In this document: piece by piece, positions 5,493 to 60,771 of the stretch
Numbering within the stretch: the first letter of the stretch is position 1
Layout of the letters: every line of letters begins with the position of its first letter
DNA from: a bacterium
Lineage (GTDB): Bacteria > Bacillota > Sulfobacillia > UBA995
Direction: 5' to 3'
DNA: 64,000 nucleotides
Assembly (NCBI GenBank): GCA_031082145.1
Contig: JAVHLP010000005.1
Span: forward strand, 98,676 to 162,675
Notes under the pieces: generated by a model
Databases searched by the model: none
What the model was told of the DNA's origin: nothing
Seen by the model: only the letters and a program-made list of their open reading frames with translations
Made by a program: the position numbers and the translations under genes

Positions 5493-5567
5493 GGGCGGTT
5501 GGCTCAGGGGCAGAGCGCCTGACTCACATTCAGGAGGTCACTGGTTCAAATCCAGTACCGCCCACCA
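5493..5567 (+). tRNA. tRNA-Val (anticodon CAC), prophage integration target
   Basis: Acceptor GGGCGGT pairs with ACCGCCC. The anticodon arm is CCTGA-CTCACAT-TCAGG with CAC, the T-arm is CTGG-TTCAAAT-CCAG, and CCA is encoded at 5565-5567. From 5521 onward the gene is identical to 55448-55495, which marks it as the prophage attachment site. The gene remains intact because the element restores its 3' end. Confidence 0.95.
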
Positions 5568-5568
5568 T
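5521..5568. repeat. attL core (48-bp direct repeat, copy 1)
   Basis: Identical over 48 bases to 55448-55495. It spans the anticodon loop to the CCA end of tRNA-Val plus one base. The integrase gene begins 46 bases further and reads toward it. Confidence 0.95.
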
Positions 5569-5601: not shown

Positions 5602-5629
5602 GAGGCGGCCGAGTCAGTCCGGCCGCCTC
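5602..5629. terminator. Hairpin between tRNA-Val and integrase 3' end
   Basis: Perfect 9-bp stem GAGGCGGCC / GGCCGCCTC with a 10-base loop. It overlaps the last codons of the integrase and has no long T-tract on either side. It may act as a two-way terminator separating the tRNA unit from the leftward integrase transcript. Confidence 0.45.
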
Positions 5630-6850: not shown

Positions 6851-8548
6851 CTAGAACGGCAACCTGATCTGTCGTTCCCAGTCCAGAGTCTGGACCCGAG
6901 ACGGGGTGCTAAACGCCTGCTTGCCCAGCAGGTCCCCTATGGTCCTGATCTGCAGTCGGGGATAGGCTATACCGAGATAGTCGCACATGCCGGCGCTGCC
7001 GGCTGCCTCCCTCATGCCCCGCGTGGGCTCGTTCAGGCACACCAGCCCGCCGAGCATCGCCCCCTGCTGGCCGCCAATGGTTCCAGCCAGTTCACGCACA
7101 ATGGCAGGGCTTAGCTTGCCGCCCTTGACGGATAGGACCATGTGCTTGAGACCGCTCGAGGTCTCAAAGTAGATGCGCCCGTCTACTCCCCTGTCTCCAG
7201 ACAGCCGGGTGCTGCAGAAGCCGCCTGCTAGCTCGACTGCCCAATGCTGGAACTGCAGGGGCTCGTGCCGGAACAGCTCGCGGGCTGCCTCCACGCTTCG
7301 CGGCACGCCCGTCATCTCATAATCCCTTCCCTCTTCCAAGCCATACCTCTTGCGCAATACATCGCGCACCAACTGCACCGAGAGGATGGCGATGTCACAC
7401 CCGATCCATCTACGCCCAAGCTCCTGCGCCGCATAGATCGCGCTGCCGCATCCGCAGAACGGGTCGAAGACGTAATCGCCCTCGTTGCTGGAGGCCTGGA
7501 TAATCCGCTTGAGGAGAGCAATCGGCTTCTGGGTCGGAAACCCAAGCCGTTCTTTGGCTTGGGAGTTGATCGGGGGTACGTCCAAGATGACATCCTGGGC
7601 GGACTGTCCCTCCGGCAGGTGCAGCTTGAACCGAGGGATCCCGGTGCCTCCACGCTTTCTGGGGAAGACTATAAAGCCGTGCTCGTACAATAAATCCAGC
7701 TGGGCATGCAGTTCATCAGGAACATCGATGCCATCTGCCCTGAGCTCTGCAAGGCCAGCTCGCGGCACGACCCAGTGACGACCGGCTGTTGTTGGGTCAT
7801 AGCCGCGCCAAGGCTGCCCTGACGGCCCGTTCGTGGTCCCCGGCCCGGTCAGCACGACGAGTTGATAGCGCCCCCGAGCATCCGATTGCCGGTACTTCTC
7901 GGCTACATAGCCAGGGGCATGGGCCTGAAGGACCCTGTTCCAGGTGTATCTGTCCGACTTCGTGTAGAAGAGCAGAACGTCATGAACATCTCCCCAGCGG
8001 CGTGCCGAGCCATGTGAGAACGTTCTCTTCCAGATCACCTCGTTGCGGAAGTTGGCGTGGCCAAACAGGCCGTCCAGGATGACTTTCATATAGTGGCTGG
8101 CGGTGGGATCACAATGCAGATAGAGCGAGCCGGTCGGCTTGAGCAGGCTACGCATCTCGAGCAGGCGAAAAGTCATGTAGACGAGGTAGGCCAGCATGCG
8201 CGGCTGGGTGTTCCGCAAGGCGCTGATCCACGCATCCCAGAACCGTACGAGGTCATGGTCGACACCGTGCCTGCGAAGCACTATAGGCATGCTGCGGACC
8301 ATCTCTTGCTTTTCCTCGTCGAGTTCCCAGGCGTCGCAGAATGCCTCTTCCTGTTCCGGAACAGGCGCACCCGTCGCCTTCCGGTAGATGAGGTTGTAGG
8401 TCCGCTGGCTGTTAAATGGGGGATCCAGATACAGCAGGTCAACGCAGGCACTAGGCAACTTCCGCATTATCGTGAGATTGTCGCCGTAGAACAGCTGGTT
8501 TGGTCGGGTTGGCCCTGACTCTGGGAGGCCCTCAAGCAAGTCACGCAT
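6851..8548 (-). CDS. DNA methyltransferase fused to a PD-(D/E)XK nuclease-like domain
   Basis: 565 residues. The N-terminal two thirds is a beta-class amino-methyltransferase: the catalytic motif LDPPF (42-46) comes first, and the AdoMet-binding motif FDPFCGCGSAIYAAQELG follows near residue 358. In between lies LLKPTGSLYLHCDPTASHY. The C-terminal domain (about 430-510) has QFQHWAVELAGG, then DRGVDGRIYF and VLSVKGGK, the D...(x)K pattern of Mrr-like endonucleases. A single protein with both activities would act like a type IIG/IIL restriction-modification enzyme; solitary methylation is also possible. ATG 8548 is near the prophage left end, leftward, downstream of the repressor block. No separate restriction gene is adjacent. 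Confidence 0.85.
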   Translation of the reverse strand: MRDLLEGLPESGPTRPNQLFYGDNLTIMRKLPSACVDLLYLDPPFNSQRTYNLIYRKATGAPVPEQEEAFCDAWELDEEKQEMVRSMPIVLRRHGVDHDLVRFWDAWISALRNTQPRMLAYLVYMTFRLLEMRSLLKPTGSLYLHCDPTASHYMKVILDGLFGHANFRNEVIWKRTFSHGSARRWGDVHDVLLFYTKSDRYTWNRVLQAHAPGYVAEKYRQSDARGRYQLVVLTGPGTTNGPSGQPWRGYDPTTAGRHWVVPRAGLAELRADGIDVPDELHAQLDLLYEHGFIVFPRKRGGTGIPRFKLHLPEGQSAQDVILDVPPINSQAKERLGFPTQKPIALLKRIIQASSNEGDYVFDPFCGCGSAIYAAQELGRRWIGCDIAILSVQLVRDVLRKRYGLEEGRDYEMTGVPRSVEAARELFRHEPLQFQHWAVELAGGFCSTRLSGDRGVDGRIYFETSSGLKHMVLSVKGGKLSPAIVRELAGTIGGQQGAMLGGLVCLNEPTRGMREAAGSAGMCDYLGIAYPRLQIRTIGDLLGKQAFSTPSRVQTLDWERQIRLPF

Positions 8549-9482: not shown

Positions 9483-9947
9483 CTACAGACCGAGCAACTG
9501 CTTCTTCTTGGCTTCAAACTCCTCCCTGGTCAAGAACCCCTGTTCCACTAGTTGTGCAAGCTTGGTGATCTCGTCTGCTACTGAGACTTGAGGGGCCGAA
9601 GTGGCCCTCCGGGACCTCTCGATGCCCGCCTCGATCATCTCCTTGGCTTTGAGAAAGGCGGGCTGCTGGCTGATGTTGAACATGACGGTATTCTCATCAC
9701 TGACGGCGTCGAAGAGACCTCCCTTTGTCTCTGCACCGCCAAGGAAGGAGAACTGAATGTATCCATTGGTGAGCATCCCGGCCCTCTTCAGCTGAATCGA
9801 GCTGATCTGATCGATCCGTATCTCCTTGTCACCCTTCAGTCCCTGTGTTGCGAAGGCCAGGATTCCTCTCCGGCTGATGACCACCAACTGCGGCTTCACA
9901 GTCAGCTGCCCATTGATCCCCTTGGCCGAGAACTCCTCTTCAGCCAC
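9483..9947 (-). CDS. PH-like (DUF4429-type) protein with SHOCT tail
   Basis: 154 residues. The N-terminal half matches the pattern of bacterial PH-like/DUF4429 domains (GINGQLTVKPQLVVISRRGI, DKEIRIDQISSIQLKRAG, GYIQFSFLGG). The last 32 residues are a SHOCT domain (ADEITKLAQLVEQGFLTREE, then FEAKKKQLLGL), a short helical oligomerisation module found at the ends of many membrane-linked or phage proteins. No signal peptide. ATG 9947 is preceded by a GGAGGG box. It lies in the cargo block with two other envelope-like genes. Biochemical role unknown. Confidence 0.75.
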   Translation of the reverse strand: MAEEEFSAKGINGQLTVKPQLVVISRRGILAFATQGLKGDKEIRIDQISSIQLKRAGMLTNGYIQFSFLGGAETKGGLFDAVSDENTVMFNISQQPAFLKAKEMIEAGIERSRRATSAPQVSVADEITKLAQLVEQGFLTREEFEAKKKQLLGL

Positions 9948-10056: not shown

Positions 10057-11106
10057 TCAATCGATCACAACGACCTTCTCGGCTTTGGTGTCAAGGCTCT
10101 CGTATACGAGGCGGTATTGGGCTGCCTTCGGCATCTCGAACAGCAGCCACCCTGTTGCGTGGGTCTGGGGCTGAAGATCTTTGGCCGAGAAGCTGTTGGA
10201 GATGCCCCAGCTATGCATGCTAACCTCGTTCAGGTATCCATTCGGGGCGATCAGGCTGAAGAACAGCGGGTTGACGTGGGAGGTGCTCCGCCCGACATTG
10301 CCTACACCCACTCCTACCCAAACGAACCACGAGGTCTTGTTCTCGAAGTTGTAGGTCGTGAACCCATCGGAGAAGGTCTCGGTGACACGCACGCCGATCA
10401 CCGCTATCCGGCAGCTGCCGGACCCCTCGAGGACAGCCATCTGTGCCTTGGCAGCTGCCAGCGCCTCGGCCTGCAGCCGCTTCTTCTCCGCCGCTTCTGC
10501 CTGGTCGATCTCCTTCCCGAGCTGAGCGGCTGCATCGGCGGCTACCACGCCGAGATCCTGCGCTTGTGTCAGCAGATTCCTTGCTGCCTGGAACTCCGCC
10601 GTTCCGCAGAACGCCTCTACCGCCTTGACCGCAGCCTGGCTAAGCAGTACTCGTGCGTCGGCGTGGTTGGGATCCTCGGGCAAGACCCCCTGCAACGCCT
10701 TGAATGCCTCGGCGTAGTGGCCGGAGCTGAGTGCGCCCTGCCCAGTCTCGAAAGCCCAAGCGGACTTGGCGAGTGCCTCGGCAGCGACGATCTCTCGCAG
10801 GATGGCCTCTGCTTCCGCAAGAATATCAGGCTTGCTTCTGGCTCCGGAGCGAGCCTTCTCGGCTGCCGCGCGAGCGCCCACCAGGTCCCCCGTGGCCAAG
10901 GCCACTTGAGCATCTTCCAGGTACTGCTGCACCGTGCTCTCTGATGGTAAGCCTGTCCCGGCGGAACTCAGGAGGAGCAGGCCGACCAAGGTAACGACGG
11001 CTGCCGCCTTACGGTTGCGGATCTTCAGTCTCTTGACGCTGCCCTTGAACAGCCCGACTAGACCCACCACAAATCCGATCAGACCGAGGAATGCGAGAAA
11101 CCCCAT
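10057..11106 (-). CDS. Membrane-anchored TPR/DUF4352-like protein
   Basis: 349 residues. Two hydrophobic stretches lie at the N-terminus (MGFLAFLGLIGFVVGLVGLF and AAAVVTLVGLLLLSSAG), then an alanine-rich helical region with TPR-like periodicity (about 55-215), a charged helix (AEAAEKKRLQAEALAAAKAQ) and a C-terminal beta domain resembling the DUF4352/telokin-like fold (VNPLFFSLIAPNGY, ATGWLLFEMPKAAQYRLVYE). It is predicted to sit in the cell envelope with the beta domain outside. ATG 11106 has a GGAGGGAGG site. It overlaps the upstream protease gene by 98 bp, so they are translationally linked. Probable lysogenic-conversion gene. Confidence 0.7.
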   Translation of the reverse strand: MGFLAFLGLIGFVVGLVGLFKGSVKRLKIRNRKAAAVVTLVGLLLLSSAGTGLPSESTVQQYLEDAQVALATGDLVGARAAAEKARSGARSKPDILAEAEAILREIVAAEALAKSAWAFETGQGALSSGHYAEAFKALQGVLPEDPNHADARVLLSQAAVKAVEAFCGTAEFQAARNLLTQAQDLGVVAADAAAQLGKEIDQAEAAEKKRLQAEALAAAKAQMAVLEGSGSCRIAVIGVRVTETFSDGFTTYNFENKTSWFVWVGVGVGNVGRSTSHVNPLFFSLIAPNGYLNEVSMHSWGISNSFSAKDLQPQTHATGWLLFEMPKAAQYRLVYESLDTKAEKVVVID

Positions 11107-12196: not shown

Positions 12197-12454
12197 ATGC
12201 GCCAGTCCCTCAGAGCACGCAGGGTCAGAGCAAGGCTCACCGTTGCCGAAGTGGCCTTACGGCTGGGCATATCGCGCTCTCACTACTACAAGATCGAGCA
12301 GGGCAAGCGGAATCCGAGCATGGAACTCGGCAAGGAGATCGCGGATGTCCTGGGCACGACTGTGGACGTGCTCTTTTTTGGCTCCGAGCTGGACGCGCCG
12401 TCCAGCCCCTCCGCTCGGCACCCGGTCGATGCGGGAGGTGCCCGCAGTGCCTGA
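12197..12454 (+). CDS. Cro-like XRE regulator
   Basis: 85 residues. The HTH is LTVAEVALRLGISRSHYYKI followed by EQGKRNPSMELGKEIADVLG, the DUF-free XRE type common as the first rightward gene of temperate phages. ATG 12197 follows a GGAAGGTGA site. It overlaps the next gene. Expected to counteract the leftward repressor at the shared operators. Confidence 0.85.
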   Translation: MRQSLRARRVRARLTVAEVALRLGISRSHYYKIEQGKRNPSMELGKEIADVLGTTVDVLFFGSELDAPSSPSARHPVDAGGARSA

Positions 12455-12749
12455 GACTGCCATCAGTGCTCCCCCTGTCAACTGGGACGCGCTCCCGCTC
12501 ATGCTGACTGTCCAGGAGATGGCCGCCGCTGTCCTGCGCGTTGATGCCCACACGGCCTACGAACTGGTGCGTACCCACCGGGTCCCACATGTCCACCTCG
12601 GGCGGTTGATCCGGATCCCGCGCGATCAGCTGCGGGAGCACCTTGAGCGCCCTCATGCAGTCCAGGAGCCCGGGTACGTCCCACCCACGCTCCACCGTAA
12701 CGGCAGGCCCGGCATCAGGACAGCGGCTTTCAATCGTGGCGCCGGGTAG
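12447..12749 (+). CDS. Excisionase-type helix-turn-helix protein
   Basis: 100 residues from GTG 12447 (GGGAGG upstream). The central MerR/excisionase-like winged HTH reads LTVQEMAAAVLRVDAHTAYE, then LVRTHRVPHVHLGRLIRIPR. This is the HTH_17 pattern of phage Xis and plasmid copy regulators. Overlaps the Cro-like gene by 8 bp. May bend DNA for excision or act as an early regulator. Confidence 0.75.
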   Translation: MPETAISAPPVNWDALPLMLTVQEMAAAVLRVDAHTAYELVRTHRVPHVHLGRLIRIPRDQLREHLERPHAVQEPGYVPPTLHRNGRPGIRTAAFNRGAG

Positions 12750-16427: not shown

Positions 16428-16603
16428 TCGTCTACGAGTACTCCTATCGCATCCTGACGCCCCGTGGCCGCGAGATCCGGCGCGGCGTTATCGAGACTGA
16501 TGTTGATCACGGGCGTGTGCTGGCGTACCTGCGCGACAGACACCCCCGGAAGCGGGTCGAGCTCGCTGAGCGCCGGGAACAGGCCGGGGGTGGCGCCACA
16601 TGA
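16424..16603 (+). CDS. Very small phage protein
   Basis: 59 residues (MIVYEYSYRILTPRGREIRR ... GRVLAYLRDRHPRKRVELAE). ATGA overlaps at both ends make it very likely translated. Basic, one alpha/beta segment, no family recognised. Confidence 0.6.
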   Translation: MIVYEYSYRILTPRGREIRRGVIETDVDHGRVLAYLRDRHPRKRVELAERREQAGGGAT

Positions 16604-17736
16604 AGGTCATGCTGCTACCCGACCTCGAGTGCTATCCCTCGACGCACAACCGCCAGGGCCCGGACGGGGTTCCGACCCGGCTGGCCGAGTGGCGGCAGTG
16701 TGCCGAGGCCATTGTACAGGGGGCCCTCGATCGTCGGGCCGACCTGGTGATCGCCCCGGGGGACTTCTTCGAGCTCCCGCGCCCCTGGGCAACGGAAGTT
16801 CTGGAGGTCGCAGGCCTGTTCCAGCGGCTTGCCAGGCCCAACCGGCCCGTTGTCGGCTGCGCGGGAAACCACGACCTGCGGGGCGCCGGACAGCGCGGGC
16901 CCTGCGAGCTGATCGCCGCTATGGGCCAATCCTCCTGGGGCATCACCATGCCCACCCTGCTCGACTGGGTCGACATCGACGTTGCGGTGCTCCCCGCCGC
17001 CAAGCCGAGCCTGCTGGCGGAGGAGGTGGCCGACCCGGCGGCGCTGGCCATGGCCGTGTCTGACCGCTTGGTCACAATCTCCCGAGGCCTCAGAGCCCAG
17101 TGCCGGGGGACTGTGCCGGCCATCCTCGTGGGCCACTGGACGATCGCTGGGGCCACCACCTCCAGCCACCAGATCCTCCCCTCCACGGAGCCCACCATCC
17201 CCCTGGCCGAACTCCAGGCCCAGCGGTGGGACGCCTGCCTGTTCGGGCACATCCACCGTCCCCAGGTGCTGTCGGAGAGGCCCTTCATCGCCTATGCCGG
17301 GGGCCTTCTCCGGCGCGACTTCGGCGAGGAGGACGACCCCAGGGGCTGCTGGATCTGGGACTCGGAGACGGGCGGGCATGAGTGGATTTCGCTGCCGGCC
17401 CGACAGTTCGTGACCCTCGAGTACCGCGATTGGCTGGCCAACGAACCCGTCGAGGACACCATTGTCCGAGTGGTCTACCAGGCGACCGAGCAGGAGGCCC
17501 GGGGCATTGACCACGACCACATGCTGCGTAGCCTCGAGCAGGCGGGAGCCCACCTGGTCGCCGGCATCTTCCCCGACATCATCCGTTCCGAGCGTACCCG
17601 CGAGGCCTCTGTCACCGAGACCACGTCGCCCCACGAGGCCCTCCGGACATACCTGGCCCGGCGGTCGGACCTGAGCGAGGAGATCCGAGTGCGGGTGGCC
17701 GAGCTCGCTGCCGCTGTCATCGAGGAGGTGGGCTGA
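16600..17736 (+). CDS. SbcD/Mre11-like metallophosphoesterase
   Basis: 378 residues. Calcineurin-type nuclease motifs are in order: LLPDLE (motif I, variant of DxH), APGDFFE, GNHDLRG, VGHWTIAG and FGHIHRPQV. Forms with the next gene an Mre11-Rad50-like complex that processes DNA ends, used by phages in replication and recombination. ATGA overlap with the gene before and one-base overlap with the SbcC-like gene after, so subunits are co-translated. Motif I has DLE where DxH is usual (LLPDLECYPSTHN), an oddity worth checking. Confidence 0.85.
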   Translation: MKVMLLPDLECYPSTHNRQGPDGVPTRLAEWRQCAEAIVQGALDRRADLVIAPGDFFELPRPWATEVLEVAGLFQRLARPNRPVVGCAGNHDLRGAGQRGPCELIAAMGQSSWGITMPTLLDWVDIDVAVLPAAKPSLLAEEVADPAALAMAVSDRLVTISRGLRAQCRGTVPAILVGHWTIAGATTSSHQILPSTEPTIPLAELQAQRWDACLFGHIHRPQVLSERPFIAYAGGLLRRDFGEEDDPRGCWIWDSETGGHEWISLPARQFVTLEYRDWLANEPVEDTIVRVVYQATEQEARGIDHDHMLRSLEQAGAHLVAGIFPDIIRSERTREASVTETTSPHEALRTYLARRSDLSEEIRVRVAELAAAVIEEVG

Positions 17737-19904
17737 TGGACCCCGTAACGCTCAGGCTCAGCAACTTTGCCTGCTACCGAGACGCAACGGTTGATTTCCG
17801 ACCGATCACCATGGCCGCCCTGGTAGGCAGCAATGGCGCTGGCAAGTCGAGTCTCGTCGACTGTCTACTTTGGGCCCTGTTTGGTGAATCGACCAAGGGT
17901 GGCGCCAAGGGCGGTCTCGATCAACACGTGACCCGGGGCGAGTCGGACTGCCGGGTGGAGCTCCAGTTCCGGCTCGGTGGCCAGACCTACCGGGTCATCC
18001 GGACCCGGTCGCTCGCCCGGAACAAGAGCATGCTCGAGTTCCACCAGCTGGTGGCGGGCGACTGGCACCCGCTGGGTGGCCGCACCCTGGCCGACACCCA
18101 GACCGCCATTGAGGGCGTCCTCCGGATGGACTACCGGACATTCACCGCGTCCTCGATCATCCTCCAGGAGCGCGCAGCCTCCTTCACCGCCGACATGACG
18201 GACGCCGAGCGCAAGGAGGTCCTCGCCCGGATCCTAGGCCTGGACCTCTGGGATCGGCTGCAGGAGCGGGCCCGAGAACGGCTCCGGGCCGTGCGCCAGG
18301 AGATCTCGACGCTCGAAGCCCGAGTCCGGGACCTCGAGCAGAAGGCCGGGGCCCGGGCGGCTACCGAAGCCGAGTTGATGGACTGCCGCCGGCAGCTGGC
18401 CCGGGCGGAAGCGGAGGCCTCGGCGGCCCAGGAAGAAGTCAGCCGACTGGAGGTTTCCGCCGCCCGCGAGCCCGACCTCCGCCGGCGAGTACGGGAAGCC
18501 GAGGACAAGGGCCGCACTGCATGGGCTGAAGGGCAGCGGGCCGAGAAGGCTATCGCATCGGCTAAGGCCGAGATGGAGGGCCTGCGGGCGCTCCTGGCCA
18601 GGCGACAAGAGATCGAAGAGGCGGTGGCCACCGAGGCCTCGGTCACACCGAAGATCGCGGAGCTCGACCGCCAGGCAGCAGAGGTTTACCGTCTCACCGA
18701 TGAGGTCGCCCGTCTGACGCGCCTGGTCGCCGGCCACGATGCCAAGGTCCAGAGTGAGCGCGCTGGGCTCGAGTCCCGCCGCGAGGCCCTCCTTGCCCAG
18801 GCCAAGCCTCTGGGCCGGGCCCCGTGTGCCGAGGTCCCCGACTACCGCGACAACTGCCCCCTGCTGGCCGGTGCCCGGAAGGCGGCGGACGAGGCGGGCC
18901 GGCTCGCGGATCGGCTATCGGCGCCGGAGCCCGATAACCCCCATCGGGCAGCCCTGGTCGAGGCCGAGGTCGCTCGCAACACCCTCGAGTACGACGGTGA
19001 CCGCCACGAGATGCTCCGGAGCGTGCTCCGCGACGCCCGTTCCACCGCCTCTTTGAAGCCTCGCCTCGAGGCCGCCGATGCCCGCACTGCGGACCTCAAG
19101 CGGCGCATCAACGAGGAGGACGAGCGTCAGAAGGCCGCCGTCGGGGACTACGCCATGGCCCACAACCGGGCCGACGCCGCGCGCAAGGAGCTGGCCAGCC
19201 TGACCGAGGCAGTCGGTCAACTCGAGGTGGCCCGGCAGCGCCTTCGGGTGGCCCGGGCCACGGAGGCCTCCACGCGCACGGACATCGGCCGCCTCGAGCA
19301 GCTGGTCGCCGACGCCCGCAAGGCGGCGGACGCCCTCGCGGCTGCCCTCCAGGCCCTAGACGCCGCCAGCCGGGACGAGCTAGTCTACCACGTCCTCGAT
19401 CAGGCCTGTAGCACCAAGGGTGGCGTGCCCGCCCTGATGATCGAAAACGCCGTGCCCCAGCTGGAGCGCCTGGCCAACGAGCTCCTCGACCGGATGGCCG
19501 GGGGCCGCTTCCACGTCCGGCTCGACACCCAGGCGGAGGGGAAGACCACCGGCACCATGCAGGAGGTCCTCCGGATCACCGTGTTGGACGCCGGCGAGGA
19601 GCGTCCGTACCAGACGTACAGCGGTGCCGAGCGGTTCCTCGTCAACCTGGCGCTCCGAATTGCTCTCAGCAAGTTCCTGGCCCACCGTGCCGGGGCCGAG
19701 ATCCGGCTTCTGGTGCTCGACGAGGGCATCGGGTGTTGCGATGCCAGTAACCGGGCGGCCGTGATGGACGCCATCCGGGCCGTGTCCGCCGAGTTCGGCA
19801 AGTGTCTGGTCGTGACCCACTTGGATGAGCTCAAGGACAGCCTCCCCCAGCGGGTGGAGGTAACGAGGCATCAGGACGGGTCGCACGTGAAGGTGGTGGC
19901 CTGA
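17736..19904 (+). CDS. SbcC/Rad50-like ATPase
   Basis: 722 residues, shorter than cellular SbcC (about 1000). Walker A GSNGAGKSS is at about 31-39 and a Q-loop-type segment SSIILQERAASF follows. Long coiled coils (about 180-350 and 390-550) flank a hinge with C364 and C374 in APCAEVPDYRDNCPLLAGA, wider than the usual CxxC zinc hook. The ABC signature region TYSGAERFLVNLALRIALSK and Walker B LLVLDEGIGCCD are near the C-terminus. Partner of the SbcD-like nuclease encoded just upstream. Confidence 0.88.
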   Translation: MDPVTLRLSNFACYRDATVDFRPITMAALVGSNGAGKSSLVDCLLWALFGESTKGGAKGGLDQHVTRGESDCRVELQFRLGGQTYRVIRTRSLARNKSMLEFHQLVAGDWHPLGGRTLADTQTAIEGVLRMDYRTFTASSIILQERAASFTADMTDAERKEVLARILGLDLWDRLQERARERLRAVRQEISTLEARVRDLEQKAGARAATEAELMDCRRQLARAEAEASAAQEEVSRLEVSAAREPDLRRRVREAEDKGRTAWAEGQRAEKAIASAKAEMEGLRALLARRQEIEEAVATEASVTPKIAELDRQAAEVYRLTDEVARLTRLVAGHDAKVQSERAGLESRREALLAQAKPLGRAPCAEVPDYRDNCPLLAGARKAADEAGRLADRLSAPEPDNPHRAALVEAEVARNTLEYDGDRHEMLRSVLRDARSTASLKPRLEAADARTADLKRRINEEDERQKAAVGDYAMAHNRADAARKELASLTEAVGQLEVARQRLRVARATEASTRTDIGRLEQLVADARKAADALAAALQALDAASRDELVYHVLDQACSTKGGVPALMIENAVPQLERLANELLDRMAGGRFHVRLDTQAEGKTTGTMQEVLRITVLDAGEERPYQTYSGAERFLVNLALRIALSKFLAHRAGAEIRLLVLDEGIGCCDASNRAAVMDAIRAVSAEFGKCLVVTHLDELKDSLPQRVEVTRHQDGSHVKVVA

Positions 19905-51287: not shown

Positions 51288-51557
51288 GTGAGCGAAATTC
51301 AGGTCAACGGCGCGCTCCTGTTGCAGGTGGCCCAGCGAGTAGCCGCCATAGACGAACGCACCGTGGCAATGAAGCAGGACATCGACGAGCTCAAGCGCGA
51401 CCTTGGCGCCGTCACTCCCCTCGCACGCGAGGCCCACGGCGTGGCCCAGCGGGCCGAGAGAGACATCGAGATCCTGCGCGGGCGAGCCTGGAGCGGGATC
51501 TTCGCCCTACTCGGCCTGGCCGCCAAGGTGATATGGGATCTCGTGGAGAGGAGGTAG
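51288..51557 (+). CDS. XhlA-like holin-associated protein
   Basis: 89 residues from GTG 51288. A coiled coil (VAAIDERTVAMKQDIDELKR, REAHGVAQRAERDIEILRGR) then one C-terminal membrane helix (WSGIFALLGLAAKVIWDLVE). Matches haemolysin XhlA-like proteins of the phage lysis cassette. Confidence 0.75.
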   Translation: MSEIQVNGALLLQVAQRVAAIDERTVAMKQDIDELKRDLGAVTPLAREAHGVAQRAERDIEILRGRAWSGIFALLGLAAKVIWDLVERR

Positions 51558-51565
51558 TGCGGGCC

Positions 51566-52105
51566 ATGCTGTACGTCGTCGGCCTTGACCGGGGCCACGG
51601 GGGGCCGGACCCGGGCGCCATCGGACCCACGGGGCTGCGCGAGGCGGATGTCAACGAGGGAGTGGTCCAGCGGGCGGAGCAGTATCTAACCCGCATGCGG
51701 GTCCGCGTCGTCCGTAGCTGTGCCCGTGATCAGAATCCCCTGCAGCGCGAGCGCCGCGAGGTCATGCTGGCCGGTGGAGCGGAGCTCGTCGTGTCGATCC
51801 ACCACAATGGCCACACGAGCCCGGACGCCCACGGCATGGAGGCGATTGTCTACCCGGGCGAGCGGTACGACTCCGGGGCCCTCGCGTATCACCTCCTGCG
51901 CCGGTTGGCCGTTAACTGCAACCGATGCGATCGCGGGATCAAGGTCAAGCAGTTTACCGTCTGCAATGCGCCAATCCCCGCGGTGATGATCGAGCCGGCC
52001 TTCGTCACCAACCCCGAGGAGGAGCGGCTACTGCGGCAGGACTGGTACCTGGAGAAGGCAGCGCTGGCCATCGTCGAGGGGATCTGGAGGTTCATGACCG
52101 CCTAG
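51566..52105 (+). CDS. N-acetylmuramoyl-L-alanine amidase (endolysin)
   Basis: 179 residues. Amidase_3 motifs: VGLDRGHGGPDPGAIG (zinc His), VNEGVVQRAEQYL with the conserved Glu, VSIHHNGH (second zinc His region) and PAVMIEPAFVTNPEEERLL (catalytic Glu). ATG 51566 follows GAGGAGG; GTG 51557 is an alternative. Cell-wall lysis at the end of the lytic cycle. No separate binding domain. Confidence 0.92.
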   Translation: MLYVVGLDRGHGGPDPGAIGPTGLREADVNEGVVQRAEQYLTRMRVRVVRSCARDQNPLQRERREVMLAGGAELVVSIHHNGHTSPDAHGMEAIVYPGERYDSGALAYHLLRRLAVNCNRCDRGIKVKQFTVCNAPIPAVMIEPAFVTNPEEERLLRQDWYLEKAALAIVEGIWRFMTA

Positions 52106-52527
52106 TTCGTCGGCGTTCCCTTGATCCACGTTAGCAATACACATTGGCCATGTCGCCGGGTGGGTGCGCGCATTTTGATCTCGAAAGGAGTGGCGTCGCC
52201 AGGACGCAGGCGATCGGTAACCAGAACATACTCTGACGTGGCGACGACTCTTTCATCAAGCGTCTCCAGCCTCATTTGCAGCGCTACGTATGTGTATTCT
52301 CGTCCGCTTCGGTTCTCCAGTCGTCCGCAGATGTAGATGTGTCCGTCGGCCGTGTCGGCAGTAAGCCCGGTTAACTTGACGTTGCCGAATGTGCCACTGA
52401 ACTCGTGTTCCTCATCGAGGCCGAGGATCTCAACCGATTGACCGGCGCAACCGAGAAGCAGGACAGCCGCCATCAAAGCCAGCAACGCCATTCCTGTCAT
52501 CCTGCGGATCGAGGATCCGGGGTTCAT
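52102..52527 (-). CDS. Antisense moron: lipoprotein
   Basis: 141 residues. The signal peptide MALLALMAAVLLLGC ends in a good lipobox LLGC; the mature domain is beta-rich (GNVKLTGLTADTADGHIYIC, GRLENRSGREYTYVALQMRL, DRLRPGDATPFEIKMRA), the FxLYD-type fold. On the minus strand between amidase and holin with its own extended -10 promoter, so expressed in the lysogen. Surface lipoproteins of prophages can mask receptors or block DNA entry; not proven here. Confidence 0.75.
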   Translation of the reverse strand: MNPGSSIRRMTGMALLALMAAVLLLGCAGQSVEILGLDEEHEFSGTFGNVKLTGLTADTADGHIYICGRLENRSGREYTYVALQMRLETLDERVVATSEYVLVTDRLRPGDATPFEIKMRAPTRRHGQCVLLTWIKGTPTN

Positions 52528-52566: not shown

Positions 52567-52605
52567 CAGGGGTGTTAGAGATTGGGAGAAAGGAGGTAAC
52601 CCCTC

Positions 52606-52911
52606 ATGCTGGAGCTGAGTCTGAGTACCGAAGTTCTCTTCACGCTGCTGGCCGTCCTCGTCCTGATCCTCGTCAATGCCGCCCTGGCCATCCTCCGGGC
52701 GGTCATCGACGGGGAGTTCTCGGTCAGCCACGTGGCCGATTTCCTGCGCCGGCACATCTTGCCCGACGGTGGGACGCTGCTCATCCTGGCCCTGGCGGCC
52801 ACGGTCCATCCCGAGCTCAAGGCTGTGTTCTTCGTCGCGGCAGCCGCGGCCACGGCAAAGTACATCGGCAAGGTTGTCGAGCGATTACGCGCGGAAGGGT
52901 TGTATGGTTAG
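52606..52911 (+). CDS. Phage holin
   Basis: 101 residues. Two hydrophobic segments (VLFTLLAVLVLILVNAALAI and AVFFVAAAAATAKYIGKV) and a charged C-terminus; GAAAGGAGGT upstream of the ATG. Permeabilises the membrane for the amidase. The reversed order (amidase, inserted moron, holin) is due to the antisense insertion. Confidence 0.75.
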   Translation: MLELSLSTEVLFTLLAVLVLILVNAALAILRAVIDGEFSVSHVADFLRRHILPDGGTLLILALAATVHPELKAVFFVAAAAATAKYIGKVVERLRAEGLYG

Positions 52912-52940
52912 GTAGGGGCGGAAGAGAAGAATGGTATGCC

Positions 52941-52976
52941 GAAGGGGAGCGGTCCCGCGAGGGGCTGCTCCCCTTC
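52941..52976. terminator. Bidirectional terminator at end of late operon
   Basis: Perfect 10-bp stem GAAGGGGAGC / GCTCCCCTTC with a 16-base loop, between the rightward holin gene and the leftward right-end cassette, with pyrimidine-rich flanks. Confidence 0.65.
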
Positions 52977-52997
52977 TTGGTGTCTATGCCGAGGGAT

Positions 52998-53897
52998 TCA
53001 TCCCGACACATCAATCCTCAGCGGTCTCGGTGCCACCCACCTCCGCGCCTCGTACCCATCGACGTAGATCCACTTGACCTCGGCCCTGGCCGGGCCGTAC
53101 CGCTGCCGCTTGACGTGGCCACGCACCGGCACGGTCTGAGGCAGCCGCCCGGAGAGGTCTGCCGCAGCCCCAGCCTCCTCGCCAGCCCGCTGCCGAGAGG
53201 GTGTGATCCGGCCAAGGTGGATGCGCCGGACCAGCCATCCCTCAGCGGAGTCGCCAGCCGGCTGCCGCGGGGCCCGGGCTCCACGGCGCCTGGGCGCCAG
53301 CTGCTCCTCGTCCGCCAGGAGCGGGCTGCCCTCCGCCACAAGGAGGAGGCCAAGCACGACCGCGAACCGTGCCGCATCCCGGGCCCAGGCGTGGTGGGCG
53401 TCTACGTCCGCGATCAGAGGCGAGTCGTCCCGCTGAATGCCGGCCTCCAGGTCCTCCTCCCGCCAGTGGGGCACCCAGCGGGCCACGTAGACCCCGTCGG
53501 GGTGGTCGAGGCCCACGAGGTAGATGACCCCATCCAGCTCGTACCCACCCAGGCTCGCGGTCTGCCCGAACAACGGCTCTTCCGGCCGGCGGGCCTCGAG
53601 GAGCCAGGGCCCCCGCAGGAGGTGCGGCGGCTCCCCGGGGAGGGAGTGCAGGTCTGTCTCGGCCACCACTCGGGTCGCGCCGGCGGAGAGGCGATGCACC
53701 ACGAGCCGGGGCATGCTGAGAGCCAAGGCGGCGCAGTTGACGATCGCCGGCATGCCGAACACCATCTCCGGGCCGTGGGTGACGGTCGCCAGGAGCCCTG
53801 CCGCCTGGCGGAGCTCGCAGGCCGGCGGCACGGGCGCACCACCGGCCACGCGGCGCAGCTGCTCTACGGTCTCGGAGAGGGAAACCCAGCGAGTCAT
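52998..53897 (-). CDS. Right-end cassette protein C, conserved phage type
   Basis: 299 residues, no membrane segment. The C-terminal part RRIHLGRITPSRQR ... VPVRGHVKRQRYGPARAEVK then WIYVDGYEARRWV is a pattern seen in phage proteins of many Gram-positive hosts. The N-terminal 200 residues look like an independent alpha/beta domain (PLFGQTASLGGYELDGVIYL, VGLDHPDGVYVARWVPHW). Third gene of the leftward cassette, overlapping the second by four bases. Function unknown. Confidence 0.65.
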   Translation of the reverse strand: MTRWVSLSETVEQLRRVAGGAPVPPACELRQAAGLLATVTHGPEMVFGMPAIVNCAALALSMPRLVVHRLSAGATRVVAETDLHSLPGEPPHLLRGPWLLEARRPEEPLFGQTASLGGYELDGVIYLVGLDHPDGVYVARWVPHWREEDLEAGIQRDDSPLIADVDAHHAWARDAARFAVVLGLLLVAEGSPLLADEEQLAPRRRGARAPRQPAGDSAEGWLVRRIHLGRITPSRQRAGEEAGAAADLSGRLPQTVPVRGHVKRQRYGPARAEVKWIYVDGYEARRWVAPRPLRIDVSG

Positions 53898-54700
53898 GCC
53901 GGATCCCCCTTCTCTGTCGGCCGCACCGCTGTCTGGTCTAGGTAGTCATCCAGCGCCTCCTGCGGGATGCGCCACTGCACGCCGATCTTGTGTGCCCGCA
54001 GGTGTCCGCGCTTGATCTCCCGTAGCACCGTCTGCCGATCCACAGACAGGCGGCTGGCCACGGTGGCCACGTCGAGCATGGGGGGCGGCTCGGGCCGCTC
54101 CATGTCGGCCTTGTACCCGAGCTCATCCCTGAGTGCGCGCAGGTACTCCGCCACACTGCCCTCCAGGATGACACCCTCGCGCCGGGCCTCCTCCTCAATC
54201 TCGCGGTCCCACTGGGTGATCTCCTCGTCGGTGGAGGTAGCAGTCACGGGGGGAGGGCTGCCGCGCAGCCACTCTCCGGCGTCATAGACGGCCACCCGGT
54301 CGGTCGGGTCGTCGATGTAGCTGTCTACCCACTCAATGGCGTCCTGGAGGGCCTGCTGGGCGTCCTCGCTGAGTCGCCCGACCCTGTTGTTGCCGTCCCA
54401 CTCGATGGAGTGGCCGGCGCAGATCCGGCCGATGAGGGTCTGTAGCTCGGGGTCCTCCAGCATGTCGGCGACCACCCGGCCGCGCAGATACGGGTCCACC
54501 GGGATCCGGCGGTACAGACCGTGCCATACGGCCATCGGCACCGCCCCGCCGATCTCACCGTCGTGGGTGGCGGTGACGGTCCAAGTCGACGGGTCGATCT
54601 CGATGTAGGCCGGCTGGGGTTTGGTCTGGCCGGGATACCGGCGGTAAAGCGGGGCCAACTCGTCGCGCATCACGGCTGCATTGGTGGTGAACTCGGCCAT
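53894..54700 (-). CDS. Right-end cassette protein B with excisionase-type HTH
   Basis: 268 residues from ATG 54700 (GAGGAGGTG upstream). The N-terminal acidic domain (YIEIDPSTWTVTATHDGEIG, GAVPMAVWHGLYRRIPVDPY) is unknown; the C-terminal HTH_17 reads MLDVATVASRLSVDRQTVLR, then EIKRGHLRAHKIGVQWRIPQ and EALDDYL. DNA-binding regulator, perhaps of the cassette or of excision. Second gene of the leftward operon. Confidence 0.7.
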   Translation of the reverse strand: MAEFTTNAAVMRDELAPLYRRYPGQTKPQPAYIEIDPSTWTVTATHDGEIGGAVPMAVWHGLYRRIPVDPYLRGRVVADMLEDPELQTLIGRICAGHSIEWDGNNRVGRLSEDAQQALQDAIEWVDSYIDDPTDRVAVYDAGEWLRGSPPPVTATSTDEEITQWDREIEEEARREGVILEGSVAEYLRALRDELGYKADMERPEPPPMLDVATVASRLSVDRQTVLREIKRGHLRAHKIGVQWRIPQEALDDYLDQTAVRPTEKGDPA

Positions 54701-54713
54701 TCGGGACACCTCC

Positions 54714-55133
54714 TCATCTCTCGAACGGGTTGTTGCCCGGCACTTCCGGGCCGATAGTCAGGGGCGCAGGCACCGTGCGGCCGAACTCGGTCCCGGGGCG
54801 GTCGTGATCGTAGTCGTAGAGAGTGATACCTGCCAGAGCCGCGATGAACTCGCGCCAGTTTGCACGGGTCAGGATGTCCTCGAACGCTACGATCAGGGTC
54901 GTCCAGGGATCGCGCTCCAGTCGGGCCTCCATCCGAGCACCCAACCCCTCGGCGAACCGGATTTCCTTGGCGAGGGCGACGAGGTCGCTGCGGTCAACGA
55001 CAGCCACCCATGCCTTATCCAGCCCGTCGAACTTGAACCCCCGTGCCCTCAGGGCGTCCTTGATGTCGTAGCCGTTGCGCACCAGCACCCGTACCCTGTT
55101 GCCCCCGGCTGCCCTCACCGCTATGGTTGCCAC
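54714..55133 (-). CDS. Right-end cassette protein A, hypothetical
   Basis: 139 residues. IKDALRARGFKFDGLDKAWV resembles small phage and plasmid domains that recognise nucleic acid, but no family is certain. The C-terminus is disordered. First gene after a near-consensus promoter; expressed in the lysogen by inference. Confidence 0.65.
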   Translation of the reverse strand: MATIAVRAAGGNRVRVLVRNGYDIKDALRARGFKFDGLDKAWVAVVDRSDLVALAKEIRFAEGLGARMEARLERDPWTTLIVAFEDILTRANWREFIAALAGITLYDYDHDRPGTEFGRTVPAPLTIGPEVPGNNPFER

Positions 55134-55162
55134 CCTCTCCGCCTCCCCTCTCTTCTGTCTTC

Positions 55163-55192
55163 ATTATATCAGTACGCATCACCGTATGTCAA
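55163..55192 (-). promoter_or_regulatory. Near-consensus promoter of the right-end cassette
   Basis: On the minus strand TTGACA (55192-55187) and TATAAT (55168-55163) with an 18-bp spacer, 30 bases before the start of the cassette. The strongest vegetative promoter seen in the window. Confidence 0.85.
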
Positions 55193-55322
55193 TAGGGCCA
55201 ACACAGATAATCCGTGACATGGGGAAGATCTGCGAGCCCGCTAGCTGCGGGTGAGCTGAGCGCGAAAAGAATTTCGCGGTCCGGGGTGAGCGACCGGTAG
55301 CGTGGGCGAATCGGACGGAAAC

Positions 55323-55342
55323 CGGTGCCCAAATCGGTGCCC
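55323..55342. repeat. Candidate integrase arm-type sites, right end
   Basis: CGGTGCCCAAATCGGTGCCC, the same tandem pair as at 5637-5655 with one extra base, 106 bp inside the right attachment core. Confidence 0.55.
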
Positions 55343-55447: not shown

Positions 55448-55495
55448 GACTCACATTCAGGAGGTCACTGGTTCAAATCCAGTACCGCCCACCAT
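55448..55495. repeat. attR core (48-bp direct repeat, copy 2)
   Basis: 48 bases identical to 5521-5568, the tRNA-Val 3' half including CCA. The 5' part of the tRNA is absent here, so this is the displaced copy marking the right prophage junction. Confidence 0.95.
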
Positions 55496-55651: not shown

Positions 55652-56572
55652 ATGGATCATCACCTTCTCAGGCGACTGGCCTTCATCAAGTACCTACATA
55701 GCATGGGCGTATCGCAGTCCCGTGCCCCAGCACCGCTAAGGTGCGCCTCCGTTCTAACCTTTCACGATGCTGTGGAACTCTTTCTGCAGCTAGCGTCCGA
55801 GTATCACAATGTAGGTGCCTCCCATCCGAACTTCATGGAGTATTGGGTGATACTCAACGAGAAGCTCCCGTCCGAATTGGCCGGCAAGGAAACCATGAGA
55901 AGGCTGAACAAGGTCAGGGTTCTCCTCAAGCACCACGGTACACTCCCGTCGGACCTAGATATTGAGGCCTTTCGGGCCAGCACAGCGAGCTTCTTCCTGG
56001 ACAACACTCCCCTTGTCTTTGAGCTCGATTACGAGAGCGTGTCCATGATCGAGTACGTCAACCCGGACACATCTCGAACCCTGTTGAGGGAGGCTCAAGA
56101 CGCGACAGCGGCCGATGACATCCCCGCTGCGCTCGGGAAGATCGGCCTGGCGTACGCGCAGGTGTTTGATCACTACGCTGGCCGCACGGCAGATCGATTC
56201 TCCCGGGCACCGTCCTTTTTCAGTAATAGGCCACGAGCGTTTGCGGACGAGTTTTCCTGGGTCTCTGATCCCGTTGATCCTCTCCGCCCGTTGGCGCGCT
56301 TCGTGAACGCGACTGCCAAGTCCATCGATGAAATGCGGGAGACCCTGAAGGTGGTGGTTGTGGGTGTGGATTACGGAAGATACCTGCGCTTCAAGAACCT
56401 CGTTCCTTATGCGGTGCGGCTGACTGACGGGCGATGGCACGTCTATCCTCGGCGATATGACCCCTCGGCCGCACCTTCCGAAGCCGATGCAGCATTCGCT
56501 GTTGATTTCGTTGTTGAGTGTGCCCTGGCTCTAGCACAATTCGAAGGCTCGTTCTGCCGTGACGCTTCATAA
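55652..56572 (+). CDS. Hypothetical protein beside the prophage junction
   Basis: 306 residues from ATG 55652 (GGGGAGGGG upstream; the frame is open further back through the att repeat, but that part is not coding-like). Helical N-terminal domain (FHDAVELFLQLASEYHNVGA, MRRLNKVRVLLKHHGTLPSD, FRASTASFFLDNTPLVFELD), middle GKIGLAYAQVFDHYAGRT, then a mixed domain KVVVVGVDYGRYLRFKNLVP. Not recognised. Lower GC than the chromosome and neighbour to an integrase suggests mobile cargo. Confidence 0.7.
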   Translation: MDHHLLRRLAFIKYLHSMGVSQSRAPAPLRCASVLTFHDAVELFLQLASEYHNVGASHPNFMEYWVILNEKLPSELAGKETMRRLNKVRVLLKHHGTLPSDLDIEAFRASTASFFLDNTPLVFELDYESVSMIEYVNPDTSRTLLREAQDATAADDIPAALGKIGLAYAQVFDHYAGRTADRFSRAPSFFSNRPRAFADEFSWVSDPVDPLRPLARFVNATAKSIDEMRETLKVVVVGVDYGRYLRFKNLVPYAVRLTDGRWHVYPRRYDPSAAPSEADAAFAVDFVVECALALAQFEGSFCRDAS

Positions 56573-56647: not shown

Positions 56648-57829
56648 CTACCCCTGTTGCTTCTTCGTGGCCTCGTCACCGCCAAACACCAGAGCGTCAA
56701 ATCGGTCTGCAGCCTCCTGCTCAAGCGAGGGCGTAACATGGGCGTAGGTGTCCATCGTAAACCCTGTACTGAAATGCCCCAGGCGGTCGGAGATCACCTT
56801 GGCCGGTGTGCCAGCCTGCAGGAGCGCTGTGGCATGCGAATGGCGAAGGTCATGGAACCGTAAAGTGGGCGGTAACGCTGCCGCCTTCAGCAAGCGTGGG
56901 AAGTAACGCTTGCTCAGCAGGTCAGGCCGCAGAGGCTTGCCGTCTCTTTGAGTGAAGACGTTGCCGCTGTCCACGTACCCCTCGCCGTGGACCAAACGCT
57001 CCTTCTTCTGTTCGATGCGCCACTGCCTTAGGGCCTCAACCGAGGAATCCGGTAGCTTCACGCGCCGCCGGCTGCGCGCCGTCTTGGGTTCCTGGGGAGT
57101 GGGCCGTCCGGCTACCATCACAAGAGTGCGGCGCACCATCACCGTCCCCAAGTCGAGGTCAACGTCTTCCCAGCGAAGCCCGCAAATCTCACCCCGCCGC
57201 ATTCCGGTGCTCACTGCCAACATCCACAACGGGTACAGCCGATCCTGATGAGCTGCCTCCAGAAGGGCGCGGATGCCTTCAGCCCCGAGGGCCTGCATTT
57301 CCTTCCTCGGCACCTTCGGAGGGTCTGCCTGTGCTGCGGGGTTATAGGCTGCAATGCGCCATTTGACCGCCAGAGCTAAAGTCCGGTGAAGTACGGCGTG
57401 GCAGTACCGGGTGACACGAGGGCTGACGCCCTTCTCCAGGAGCCCAGCATAGAACACGTTGATCTGGCCGGGGGTCAGCTTCTGGACTGGCACGTGGCCG
57501 AGAACGGGGAGGATGTGGAGCTTGATCGTGCGTTCATAGCTGTCCAGGGTAGTCGGGCGAAGGTTGCGACGGGCGAAACCCTCAAGGTAGTGGGTCAGCA
57601 GTAGCTCCTCAAGCCTCATGCGGCTGGGGGCGGTGATGCCCCCGGTCTCCAACTGGTTTAGCCAGTCCCTCAACAGCCGTTCAGCCTCCCGCTTGGTCTT
57701 GGCCGTCTTGGACCGGAGCCTTGGCGCTCCGGTGGTTGGGTTGCGCCCCACGTAAACGATAACCTCGTAGGAGTGGCGCTCCTCGCCCTTCTTGGTGGTC
57801 CACTCCTTCTTGCGGATGTGCCCCCTCAT
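56648..57829 (-). CDS. Second tyrosine integrase
   Basis: 393 residues from ATG 57829 (GGAGGGAGG upstream; the frame continues upstream but is not coding-like). Arm-binding N-terminus, core-binding domain (about 70-175), catalytic residues R211 (STGMRRGEICGL), H326 and R329 (FHDLRHSHAT), H352, Y362 (MDTYAHV). Same general type as the prophage integrase but clearly different in sequence. It reads toward the tRNA-Val repeat at 55448-55495, so it may belong to another element using the same site. Confidence 0.93.
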   Translation of the reverse strand: MRGHIRKKEWTTKKGEERHSYEVIVYVGRNPTTGAPRLRSKTAKTKREAERLLRDWLNQLETGGITAPSRMRLEELLLTHYLEGFARRNLRPTTLDSYERTIKLHILPVLGHVPVQKLTPGQINVFYAGLLEKGVSPRVTRYCHAVLHRTLALAVKWRIAAYNPAAQADPPKVPRKEMQALGAEGIRALLEAAHQDRLYPLWMLAVSTGMRRGEICGLRWEDVDLDLGTVMVRRTLVMVAGRPTPQEPKTARSRRRVKLPDSSVEALRQWRIEQKKERLVHGEGYVDSGNVFTQRDGKPLRPDLLSKRYFPRLLKAAALPPTLRFHDLRHSHATALLQAGTPAKVISDRLGHFSTGFTMDTYAHVTPSLEQEAADRFDALVFGGDEATKKQQG

Positions 57830-58542: not shown

Positions 58543-60771
58543 ATGCTTGAGATCAGGACTGACTGTAGAGGCAGCATTTGGTCGCATGTTCGCCAGAAAT
58601 GGCTTGTTGAGACCCCCGAAGAGCGCGTTCGCCAGTCCTACCTGGCTGTTCTGGTCAATGAATACGACTTCGCTCTTGAGCAGATCGCCGAGGAGGAATC
58701 CGTCACAGGCCGGGGCGCTGGTCAAGCCCGTGCCGACTTCCTTATCTGGCGCAGCGTTCAGGATAGATCCGACAATCGACCGGCCCTGATCGTGGTTGAG
58801 TGCAAATCGGATAACGTCACGATTCAGCCCGAAGACTACTTCCAAGGCGACAACTACGCTCGGCGCGAGGGTGCTAAGTTCTTCGTCACCCACAACACCC
58901 GCGAAACTCGCTACTGGCGCGTACGCACCGATCGCCGTCCGGGTTACCTGGAGGAAATCGAGGACATACCGCATGCGGACGCAACGGACAAGGACATCGA
59001 AGACCTAATCGCCAAGTTGAAGGTCTTCAAAGAAGACGAGTTCGCCGACCTGCTGCACCAGTGCCACAACATTATCCGCAACCGCGAACACCTGGACCCC
59101 GCCGCCGCCTTCGACGAAATCGCCAAGGTCCTCTTCGTTAAGACTCACGTTGAACGCGACCTCAAGGCGAAGCGCCAGCGTCAGAATCGCTTCACCGTTG
59201 ATTACCTGCGGAACCTGCCGGGCCACGATCCATTAAACCTGCTATTCACAGACACCAAAGAGGCATACAGGGCCGACGAGATCTTCGCTGCCACCGACCG
59301 AATCAACCTGAAACCCGCCACCGGAGAGGAAGTCGTGGCGAAACTCGAACGCTATAACCTATCCGATACCAGCGAAGACGTGAAGGGGATCGCCTTTGAA
59401 CGGTTCCTGGGCAGGACGTTTCGCGGTGAAATCGGCCAGTTCTTCACGCCCCGACCCATTGTCGAGTTCATGGTTCGCATGGTTGACCCTCAGGAAGGAG
59501 ATGTCGTGTGCGATCCGGCCAGCGGTTCTGGCGGTTTCCTGATTCGGTTCTTCGAACTGGTTCGCGAGCAAGTCCTTGCAGACGTAGACCGGCAGTATAG
59601 GGAGTACGTCGATAGCTTGAGCATCGAAGAGATGACTGAGAACCACGCGAGGCTGCTCCGAGCCAAGCATGACGAATTGCAGGCCACCATCGACCAATCC
59701 GAGTCCGACTCCCGTCTTTGGCGGCTCGCGAACCGCTGTATCTATGGCTGCGACGCCAACGACCGCATGGCTCGAACGTCCAAGATGAACATGATCATGC
59801 ACGGTGACGGACACGGTGGCGTTCATCACCACAACGGCTTCATCAACGTCAATGGCATCTTCGAGGGCCGCTTTGACATCATCCTGACCAATCCGCCCTT
59901 TGGAGCCACCGTCGAACCGTCCGACCGCATCACTTCCAGCGACGTTCGCATAAGCGATGAGGAGTACCGCCGCTATGTTGAGTGGTACGGCCAAGCCTAC
60001 AAAGACGCCCAGGCCAGCTTACAGCGTCACGCAGATGATAGGGTCCCGATAGCGTCCCTCTTTGAGCTCCCAAAGCGTGGCGACGGAAAGCGGAAGCTCG
60101 GCAGAGTCAAGACAGAGATCCTCTTCATCGAACGGTGCCTGGCGTTGCTCAACCCCGGCGGCCGCTTGGGCATTGTCCTGCCCGAAGGCATCTTCAACAA
60201 CCCGTCCCTGGCATACGTCCGCGAGTTCTGCGAAGATCGCGCTTTCATCCGGGCCGTCGTCAGCTTGCCCCAAGACACGTTCTACTCCGCCGGGGCGTCG
60301 GTTAAAGCGTCCCTGCTGTTCATGCAGAAGTTCACCAAGGAAGAAGCCGCCGATTACGCGGCTAAGCAGCAAGCTGCAATCGACGAAGTTGACGCGGAAC
60401 ACCAGCGCGAGGTAGAGTCGGAGACCGCCCGATTCCGGGAGGAGATTGATGCAGCGAAGAAGGCCAAAGACGCCGACCGACGCAAGGCTGCCCAGATAGA
60501 ACTGAGGCAGTACGAGAAGCGGATGGCTTCGATGAAGGCCGTGAAAGCCCGGCGGTTGCTCAAGGAGCGATTCGACTACCCTATCTTCCTGTATAACGCT
60601 GAACATGTCGGTATCACCGCCACCGGCGAGCAGGACACCTGCGAACTCTACCCAGACGACATGCTGGGCCTTCCGCCAGGAATGGATGCTGGGGAAACGG
60701 CGCTGGAGCAGTATAGGCGGTTTCGGTCGGATGCCCAAGCGTTCATCGTGGCCAGTGGGGGTGACGGATGA
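58543..60771 (+). CDS. BcgI-like restriction-modification subunit (nuclease plus N6-adenine methylase)
   Basis: 742 residues from ATG 58543 (GGAAGGAGAAGAAGG upstream). The N-terminal HSDR_N-like nuclease domain (D65, E86, K88 in ADFLIW and IVVECKSD) is fused to a HsdM-like methylase: GEIGQFFTPRPIVEFMVRMV, CDPASGSGGFLIRFF (D324) and TNPPFGA (450-453). A coiled coil (DAEHQREVESETARFREEID) lies near the end. This nuclease-methylase fusion plus a separate two-TRD specificity subunit is the architecture of BcgI-type (type IIB) enzymes that cut on both sides of the site. ATGA overlap with the specificity gene. Confidence 0.88.
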   Translation: MLEIRTDCRGSIWSHVRQKWLVETPEERVRQSYLAVLVNEYDFALEQIAEEESVTGRGAGQARADFLIWRSVQDRSDNRPALIVVECKSDNVTIQPEDYFQGDNYARREGAKFFVTHNTRETRYWRVRTDRRPGYLEEIEDIPHADATDKDIEDLIAKLKVFKEDEFADLLHQCHNIIRNREHLDPAAAFDEIAKVLFVKTHVERDLKAKRQRQNRFTVDYLRNLPGHDPLNLLFTDTKEAYRADEIFAATDRINLKPATGEEVVAKLERYNLSDTSEDVKGIAFERFLGRTFRGEIGQFFTPRPIVEFMVRMVDPQEGDVVCDPASGSGGFLIRFFELVREQVLADVDRQYREYVDSLSIEEMTENHARLLRAKHDELQATIDQSESDSRLWRLANRCIYGCDANDRMARTSKMNMIMHGDGHGGVHHHNGFINVNGIFEGRFDIILTNPPFGATVEPSDRITSSDVRISDEEYRRYVEWYGQAYKDAQASLQRHADDRVPIASLFELPKRGDGKRKLGRVKTEILFIERCLALLNPGGRLGIVLPEGIFNNPSLAYVREFCEDRAFIRAVVSLPQDTFYSAGASVKASLLFMQKFTKEEAADYAAKQQAAIDEVDAEHQREVESETARFREEIDAAKKAKDADRRKAAQIELRQYEKRMASMKAVKARRLLKERFDYPIFLYNAEHVGITATGEQDTCELYPDDMLGLPPGMDAGETALEQYRRFRSDAQAFIVASGGDG

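Follow-up and report, generated by a model that had tools for sequence, protein, structure and literature searches.

The genes most closely comparable with the locus described here lie between the integrase and lysis genes of Propionibacterium phages G4, PFR1 and PFR2, Corynebacterium phage phi16 and Bifidobacterium phage BigBern1. The published account of G4 places three leftward genes, 26-28, to the left of the integrase and assigns them no function (PMC5831693). Their order is integrase gp29, gp28, gp27 and gp26, with convergent holin and endolysin genes beyond; gp26 belongs to what will be called the C family. The interval is occupied by the same three genes in PFR1 and PFR2, PFR1_23 being the C-family member. 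For PFR1_23-25, a stretch of 88% identity has been reported from a P. freudenreichii plasmid that is putatively conjugative (PMC5644110). In phi16, integrase gp33 is followed by gp32, gp31, gp30, gp29 (C family), gp28 and further genes, then by convergent lysis genes. In BigBern1, an integrase-like gene is followed by genes 33-35, gene 36 (C family), a second recombinase and convergent lysis-like genes (its integrase-like, holin-like and lysin-like labels were read from translations in this analysis). In both phages a 13-nt overlap joins the C-family gene to the gene for a second tyrosine recombinase (phi16, L055 5780-6667; BigBern1, L144 5304-6161), and these two second recombinases are homologous (28%). 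A further parallel comes from mycobacteriophage Sbash, in whose lysogen published RNA-seq shows operons close to the ends of the prophage to be expressed, defence genes 30-31 among them (PMC6426596). As near-end lysogenic operons, these genes and the present cassette would be alike in position only, expression being predicted in the present case.

The window (the whole stretch of DNA that was analysed, 64,000 nucleotides) contains a prophage of ~49.9 kb, 5521-55495, flanked by a 48-bp direct repeat that copies the 3' end of a tRNA-Val gene. A leftward three-gene cassette, A-B-C, occupies its right end, as a first-pass annotation of this DNA had proposed:

5521-5568, plus strand: attL, a 48-bp repeat overlapping tRNA-Val (5493-5567)
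5614-6798, minus strand: tyrosine integrase of the prophage (phrog_1, 7.5e-79), 46 bp inside attL
51566-52105, plus strand: endolysin (amidase) of the late module that converges on the cassette (Amidase_3, 2.4e-35, scanned as 51533-52105)
52606-52911, plus strand: 101-aa ORF, the final rightward gene before the hairpin (coding score 36.0)
52941-52976, no strand assigned: GC-rich hairpin of 36 nt, predicted by folding, in the gap where cassette and late genes converge
52998-53897, minus strand: gene C, 299 aa, divergent phrog_15934-like family member, overlapping B at ATGA
53894-54700, minus strand: gene B, 268 aa, conserved unnamed N-terminal domain and C-terminal HTH_17 (Pfam)
54714-55133, minus strand: gene A, 139 aa, GTG start, GGAGG-type ribosome-binding site
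55163-55192, minus strand: sigma-70-type promoter, TTGACA-N18-TATAAT with TG before the -10 element, 12/12 match
55319-55342, plus strand: tandem 12-nt direct repeat in the promoter-attR interval, which may be due to chance
55448-55495, plus strand: attR, 48-bp repeat of the tRNA-Val 3' end

Circularised, the phage genome thus reads integrase, attP, A, B, C and then the convergent lysis module with its amidase gene. The 101-aa ORF, for which no curated family match was found, is a candidate holin by position only. The 12-nt tandem repeat is a possible arm-type or regulator site, chance also being conceivable.

The reading of A, B and C as genes holds up. A simple codon-usage gene caller retains all three (scores of 40.8, 83.8 and 53.0 for A, B and C), and their third-position G+C, 0.81-0.87, is like that of other genes; over 143 codons, C differs from its G076 relative at 43, 38 and 69 first, second and third positions, respectively. 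For B, the ATG at 54700, which is preceded by GGAGG, is the most likely start, and the listed GTG at 54709 is less likely. An ORF antisense to C (52572-53945, plus strand) was dropped as a gene because codon scoring picks C and because C has homologs. The partial coupling claimed in the first-pass annotation comes down to one junction: 13 nt separate A from B, so that only B and C, whose stop and start share ATGA, are coupled. The promoter is indeed the best in the window, as its only 12/12 consensus match. There are three 11/12 matches, two of them upstream of tRNAs and one facing rightward between repressor and cro, and in 40 runs of first-order Markov resampling of the window 11 or 12 matches never occurred (10 matches: 0.575 per run). 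Strong constitutive expression of the cassette would be expected from such a promoter. The late terminator that had been placed back to back with the cassette may correspond to a strong hairpin between the convergent units, but the hairpin has no T-run and was not listed by the terminator scan; it is a possible two-way terminator.

The helix-turn-helix assigned to B at first pass is confirmed by Pfam (HTH_17, 3.1e-12, residues 211-259). In the structural model of B (mean pLDDT 74.7) the HTH resembles those of BldC and Pukovnik Xis. Residues ~15-125 constitute a conserved unnamed domain of phages and plasmids: B relatives are found on 13 plasmid records, among them a Chromobacterium phage-like plasmid and Streptomyces plasmids (two of the 13 match in the HTH only), and the N-terminal domain occurs also in nine viral contigs. 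It has no specific match among the structure-model matches listed, and neither it nor A matched anything below E ~0.05 in a sequence search of solved structures. Across the whole class, B has matches in 17 of 154 genomes, one of them its own; the other matches are confined to the HTH region. A small ORF beside one gene for this domain (L036 3958-4263, plus strand), with no PHROG match, contains a WDGSNHIS motif that resembles the WDGNN motif of B. A itself has no family match; its sole relative is an ORF on a Magnetospira plasmid (47.8% over 46 aa, E 2e-3), and the genome search found it in 1 of 151 genomes, its own.

Gene C is more elusive. It has no Pfam match, scanning with each of the three proteins singly turned up no relatives, and tblastn found none for any of the three in phages, nor for C in plasmids. 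C was placed only through phrog_15934, which its C-terminal half matches at 6.1e-4, and through the gene that lies downstream of the B relative on a Streptomyces albidoflavus plasmid, which matches phrog_15934 over its full length at 2.9e-20. A nine-member family HMM run against 750 window frames (stop to stop, at least 50 codons) selects C alone, at E 1.2e-4, with the runner-up at E 1.5. The match amounts to 16-17 bits and is confined to the C-terminal half; hhalign gives a probability of 40%, with small alignments, and direct BLASTP of C against the S. albidoflavus plasmid protein (P0003) finds nothing. Since the HMM picks out C alone, yet hhalign stops at 40% and BLASTP is blank, C is taken to be a divergent member, distant but specific, of a phrog_15934-like family. 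C is found in 4 of 101 related genomes, its own and three more, two of these with short matches; its profile hits 1 of 398 genomes in the phylum sample, again its own. A sequence search of solved structures returned nothing for C, and its structural model is weak (pLDDT 63.4, pTM 0.47), with no usable match, a result that does not argue for a new fold.

A search of viral contigs gave 166 relatives of the family, 80 of them retained; one query finds it on 65 plasmid records and another on 43. Relatives on actinobacterial plasmids include some that lie directly after an HTH gene. At E 0.01, neither Pfam nor PADLOC matches any of 41 members, C among them. An HTH gene directly upstream is recurrent, not universal: it is present in M. 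luteus and Streptomyces NEAU-sy36 (each with a 4-nt overlap) and in M. avium pMA100, and absent at several loci, e.g., in Yara, Rothia and C. acnes. Of the proteins encoded upstream, 50 viral-contig ones of the 68 listed yielded four with an Aca2/YdiL-like HTH and two with HTH_17. The upstream ORF overlaps the C-family gene by 4 or 1 nt in 30 of 71 loci, a count that takes any upstream ORF of at least 50 aa and is inflated by chance ORFs. A gene for the B-type N-terminal domain is followed by a C-family gene on the S. albidoflavus plasmid, on the WAC08241 plasmid (the same as viral contig L042) and on viral contig L040; that is 4 of the 15 loci scanned, two of them the same plasmid, with the window in addition. 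Searched with the B-domain HMM, 18 neighbours of other, named C loci gave no match, and 68 viral-contig neighbours gave one clear match, L141, on the same contig as L040. Association with an integrase was considered as a rule for the C family and rejected: a recombinase match lies within the flanks in only 8 of 72 non-redundant viral-contig loci, drawn from the 80 retained, so the interval between integrase and lysis genes is not the family's sole setting.

Set beside the phages with which this account began, the window cassette has the same address. On the circular genome it sits between integrase/attP and lysis genes and is transcribed convergently with the latter, as in loci of the G4/PFR1 type, and its last gene is of the C family (at an hhalign probability of only 40%). 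Like G4 (genes 26-28) and PFR1/PFR2 (Orf23-25), it consists of three genes in this interval with the C-family gene last, but genes 27 and 28 of G4 are unrelated to A or B, the G4 integrase is oppositely oriented, and the host group of these phages presumably differs from that of the window. In phi16 (gp32-gp28), C-family gp29 likewise lies between integrase gp33 and lysis genes; in contrast to the window, the second recombinase gp28 and other genes follow it, no relatives of A or B accompany it, and gp30 has no Pfam HTH. BigBern1 (genes 33-37) also has its C-family gene between integrase-like and lysis-like genes, and its gene 34 matches HTH_17 weakly (0.023); it differs in having more genes, a second recombinase after C and a non-adjacent HTH gene. 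The Streptomyces plasmids and phage-plasmids share with the window the succession of a gene for the B N-terminal domain and a C-family gene; there, however, the HTH either has a gene to itself or belongs to another class, and the integrase-lysis setting was not seen. No relative of A or B turned up in the cassettes of the named phages, to which C is the only link. Because A and B match none of the other genes, this is the same kind of locus and not the same gene set. The conservation of A-B-C at prophage ends, suggested at first pass as a point to check, extends to the C-family gene and its address, shared with five phages, and not to A and B. As judged from sequence, address and C-family gene are common to these phages and the remaining genes have been exchanged: the window cassette is a variant of an actinobacterial-phage cassette already described but unexplained, and it probably sits in another phylum.

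Elsewhere in the window, a DNA methyltransferase gene (6851-8548, minus strand; phrog_67, 7.6e-51) directly adjoins the integrase; adjacent SbcD-like and SbcC-like genes lie in the early region of the prophage (16600-19904, plus strand). Genes for a TPR/DUF4352 protein (10057-11106, minus strand) and a DUF4429/SHOCT protein (9483-9947, minus strand) between integrase and repressor are candidates for additional lysogeny-side accessory functions. Within the lysis module, a leftward 141-aa ORF (52102-52527, minus strand) has a weak coding score (7.7), a signal peptide and, by eye, a lipobox-like LLGC; this putative lipoprotein could be a superinfection-exclusion candidate. To the right of attR, a gene at 55652-56572 (plus strand) matches phrog_37995, of unknown function, at 7.2e-53 (scanned from 55421). 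A third copy of the att repeat (at least 25 bp of its end) lies at contig position 166132, which corresponds to ~67457 in window numbering, outside the window. On the strength of this third 3'-end copy, a second element seems to follow in tandem at the same tRNA site, from 55496 to ~67457, with:

56648-57829, minus strand: integrase of the second element
58543-60771: N6 methylase/HSDR_N gene (restriction-modification) of the second element

What the cassette might do has to be weighed against its distribution. Because C relatives reside on ordinary plasmids, beside ParA and RepA genes on a Rothia plasmid and next to primase in Streptomyces phage Yara, a serious rival to defence is element maintenance or copy control: B (through its HTH) and C would bind DNA as a pair and help the element to persist in plasmid-like or prophage form, a need that plasmids and phage-plasmids would have; the B relative of S. 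albidoflavus adjoins dnaB. An integrated prophage needs no partition, however, the plasmid neighbours are mostly hypothetical, and a partition or replication domain was not found in A, B or C, so that maintenance is considered rather unlikely. The Xis-like, excise-type HTH of B and the 12-nt repeats in the promoter-attR interval could suggest instead that B is an excisionase or directionality factor acting at the adjoining attP. This is improbable, because a small HTH_17 gene (12447-12749, 100 aa) beside cro offers the prophage a better candidate and because the excisionase put to experimental use in the published work on phi16 is gp47, outside the phi16 cassette (PMC5506516); the length of B, with its large conserved N-terminal domain, and the presence of B-domain genes on plasmids also argue against it. 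An addiction pair of the toxin-antitoxin type, with B as DNA-binding antitoxin and ATGA-coupled C as toxin, would account for the upstream HTH gene, the start overlap, the strong promoter and the distribution over plasmids and prophages, but C is large and without a family match, and several C loci lack an HTH partner; this too is improbable.

The preferred reading, considered somewhat likely, takes A-B-C for a temperate-phage accessory ("moron") cassette that is expressed in lysogeny; the lysogenic accessory character is well supported by position. Since it adjoins attR and has its own promoter, the cassette could stay active when the lytic genes are repressed. B would bind DNA by its BldC/Xis-like HTH, either regulating the operon or docking on the DNA of the element, with its N-terminal domain sensing or recruiting; C, translationally coupled to B, is probably the effector, and A may be a small partner. 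The resident element probably benefits from the trait conferred. The likeliest benefit, plausible by position and yet tentative, would be exclusion of, or defence against, other phages; maintenance or copy control of the element comes next, slightly behind. The role in lysogenic defence or host control advanced in the first-pass annotation retains the self-contained cassette at the attR end, at the address of other phages' cassettes, but finds nothing specific to defence, as none of A, B and C matches PADLOC at E<=1. None of the three products is recognisable as a tail or lysis protein, and the excisionase is probably encoded elsewhere.

A broader proposal is more speculative and, on present evidence, fairly unlikely: C would represent an unnamed effector family with interchangeable DNA-binding adaptors (HTH_17, Aca2/YdiL-like and others) and exchangeable N-terminal domains, A-B-C being one version of a modular element-protection system in prophages, phage-plasmids and plasmids across phyla. 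What can be said is that an unexplained prophage cassette is now tied to an unnamed protein family that occupies one genome address in several temperate phages and occurs on many actinobacterial plasmids. In one published case a phage and a putatively conjugative plasmid share the three-gene stretch (PMC5644110). Function is therefore testable in tractable systems such as phages of Corynebacterium glutamicum and P. freudenreichii. Should C indeed protect the element or the host of the element, a candidate role would follow for the "hypothetical" genes of many plasmids and prophages.
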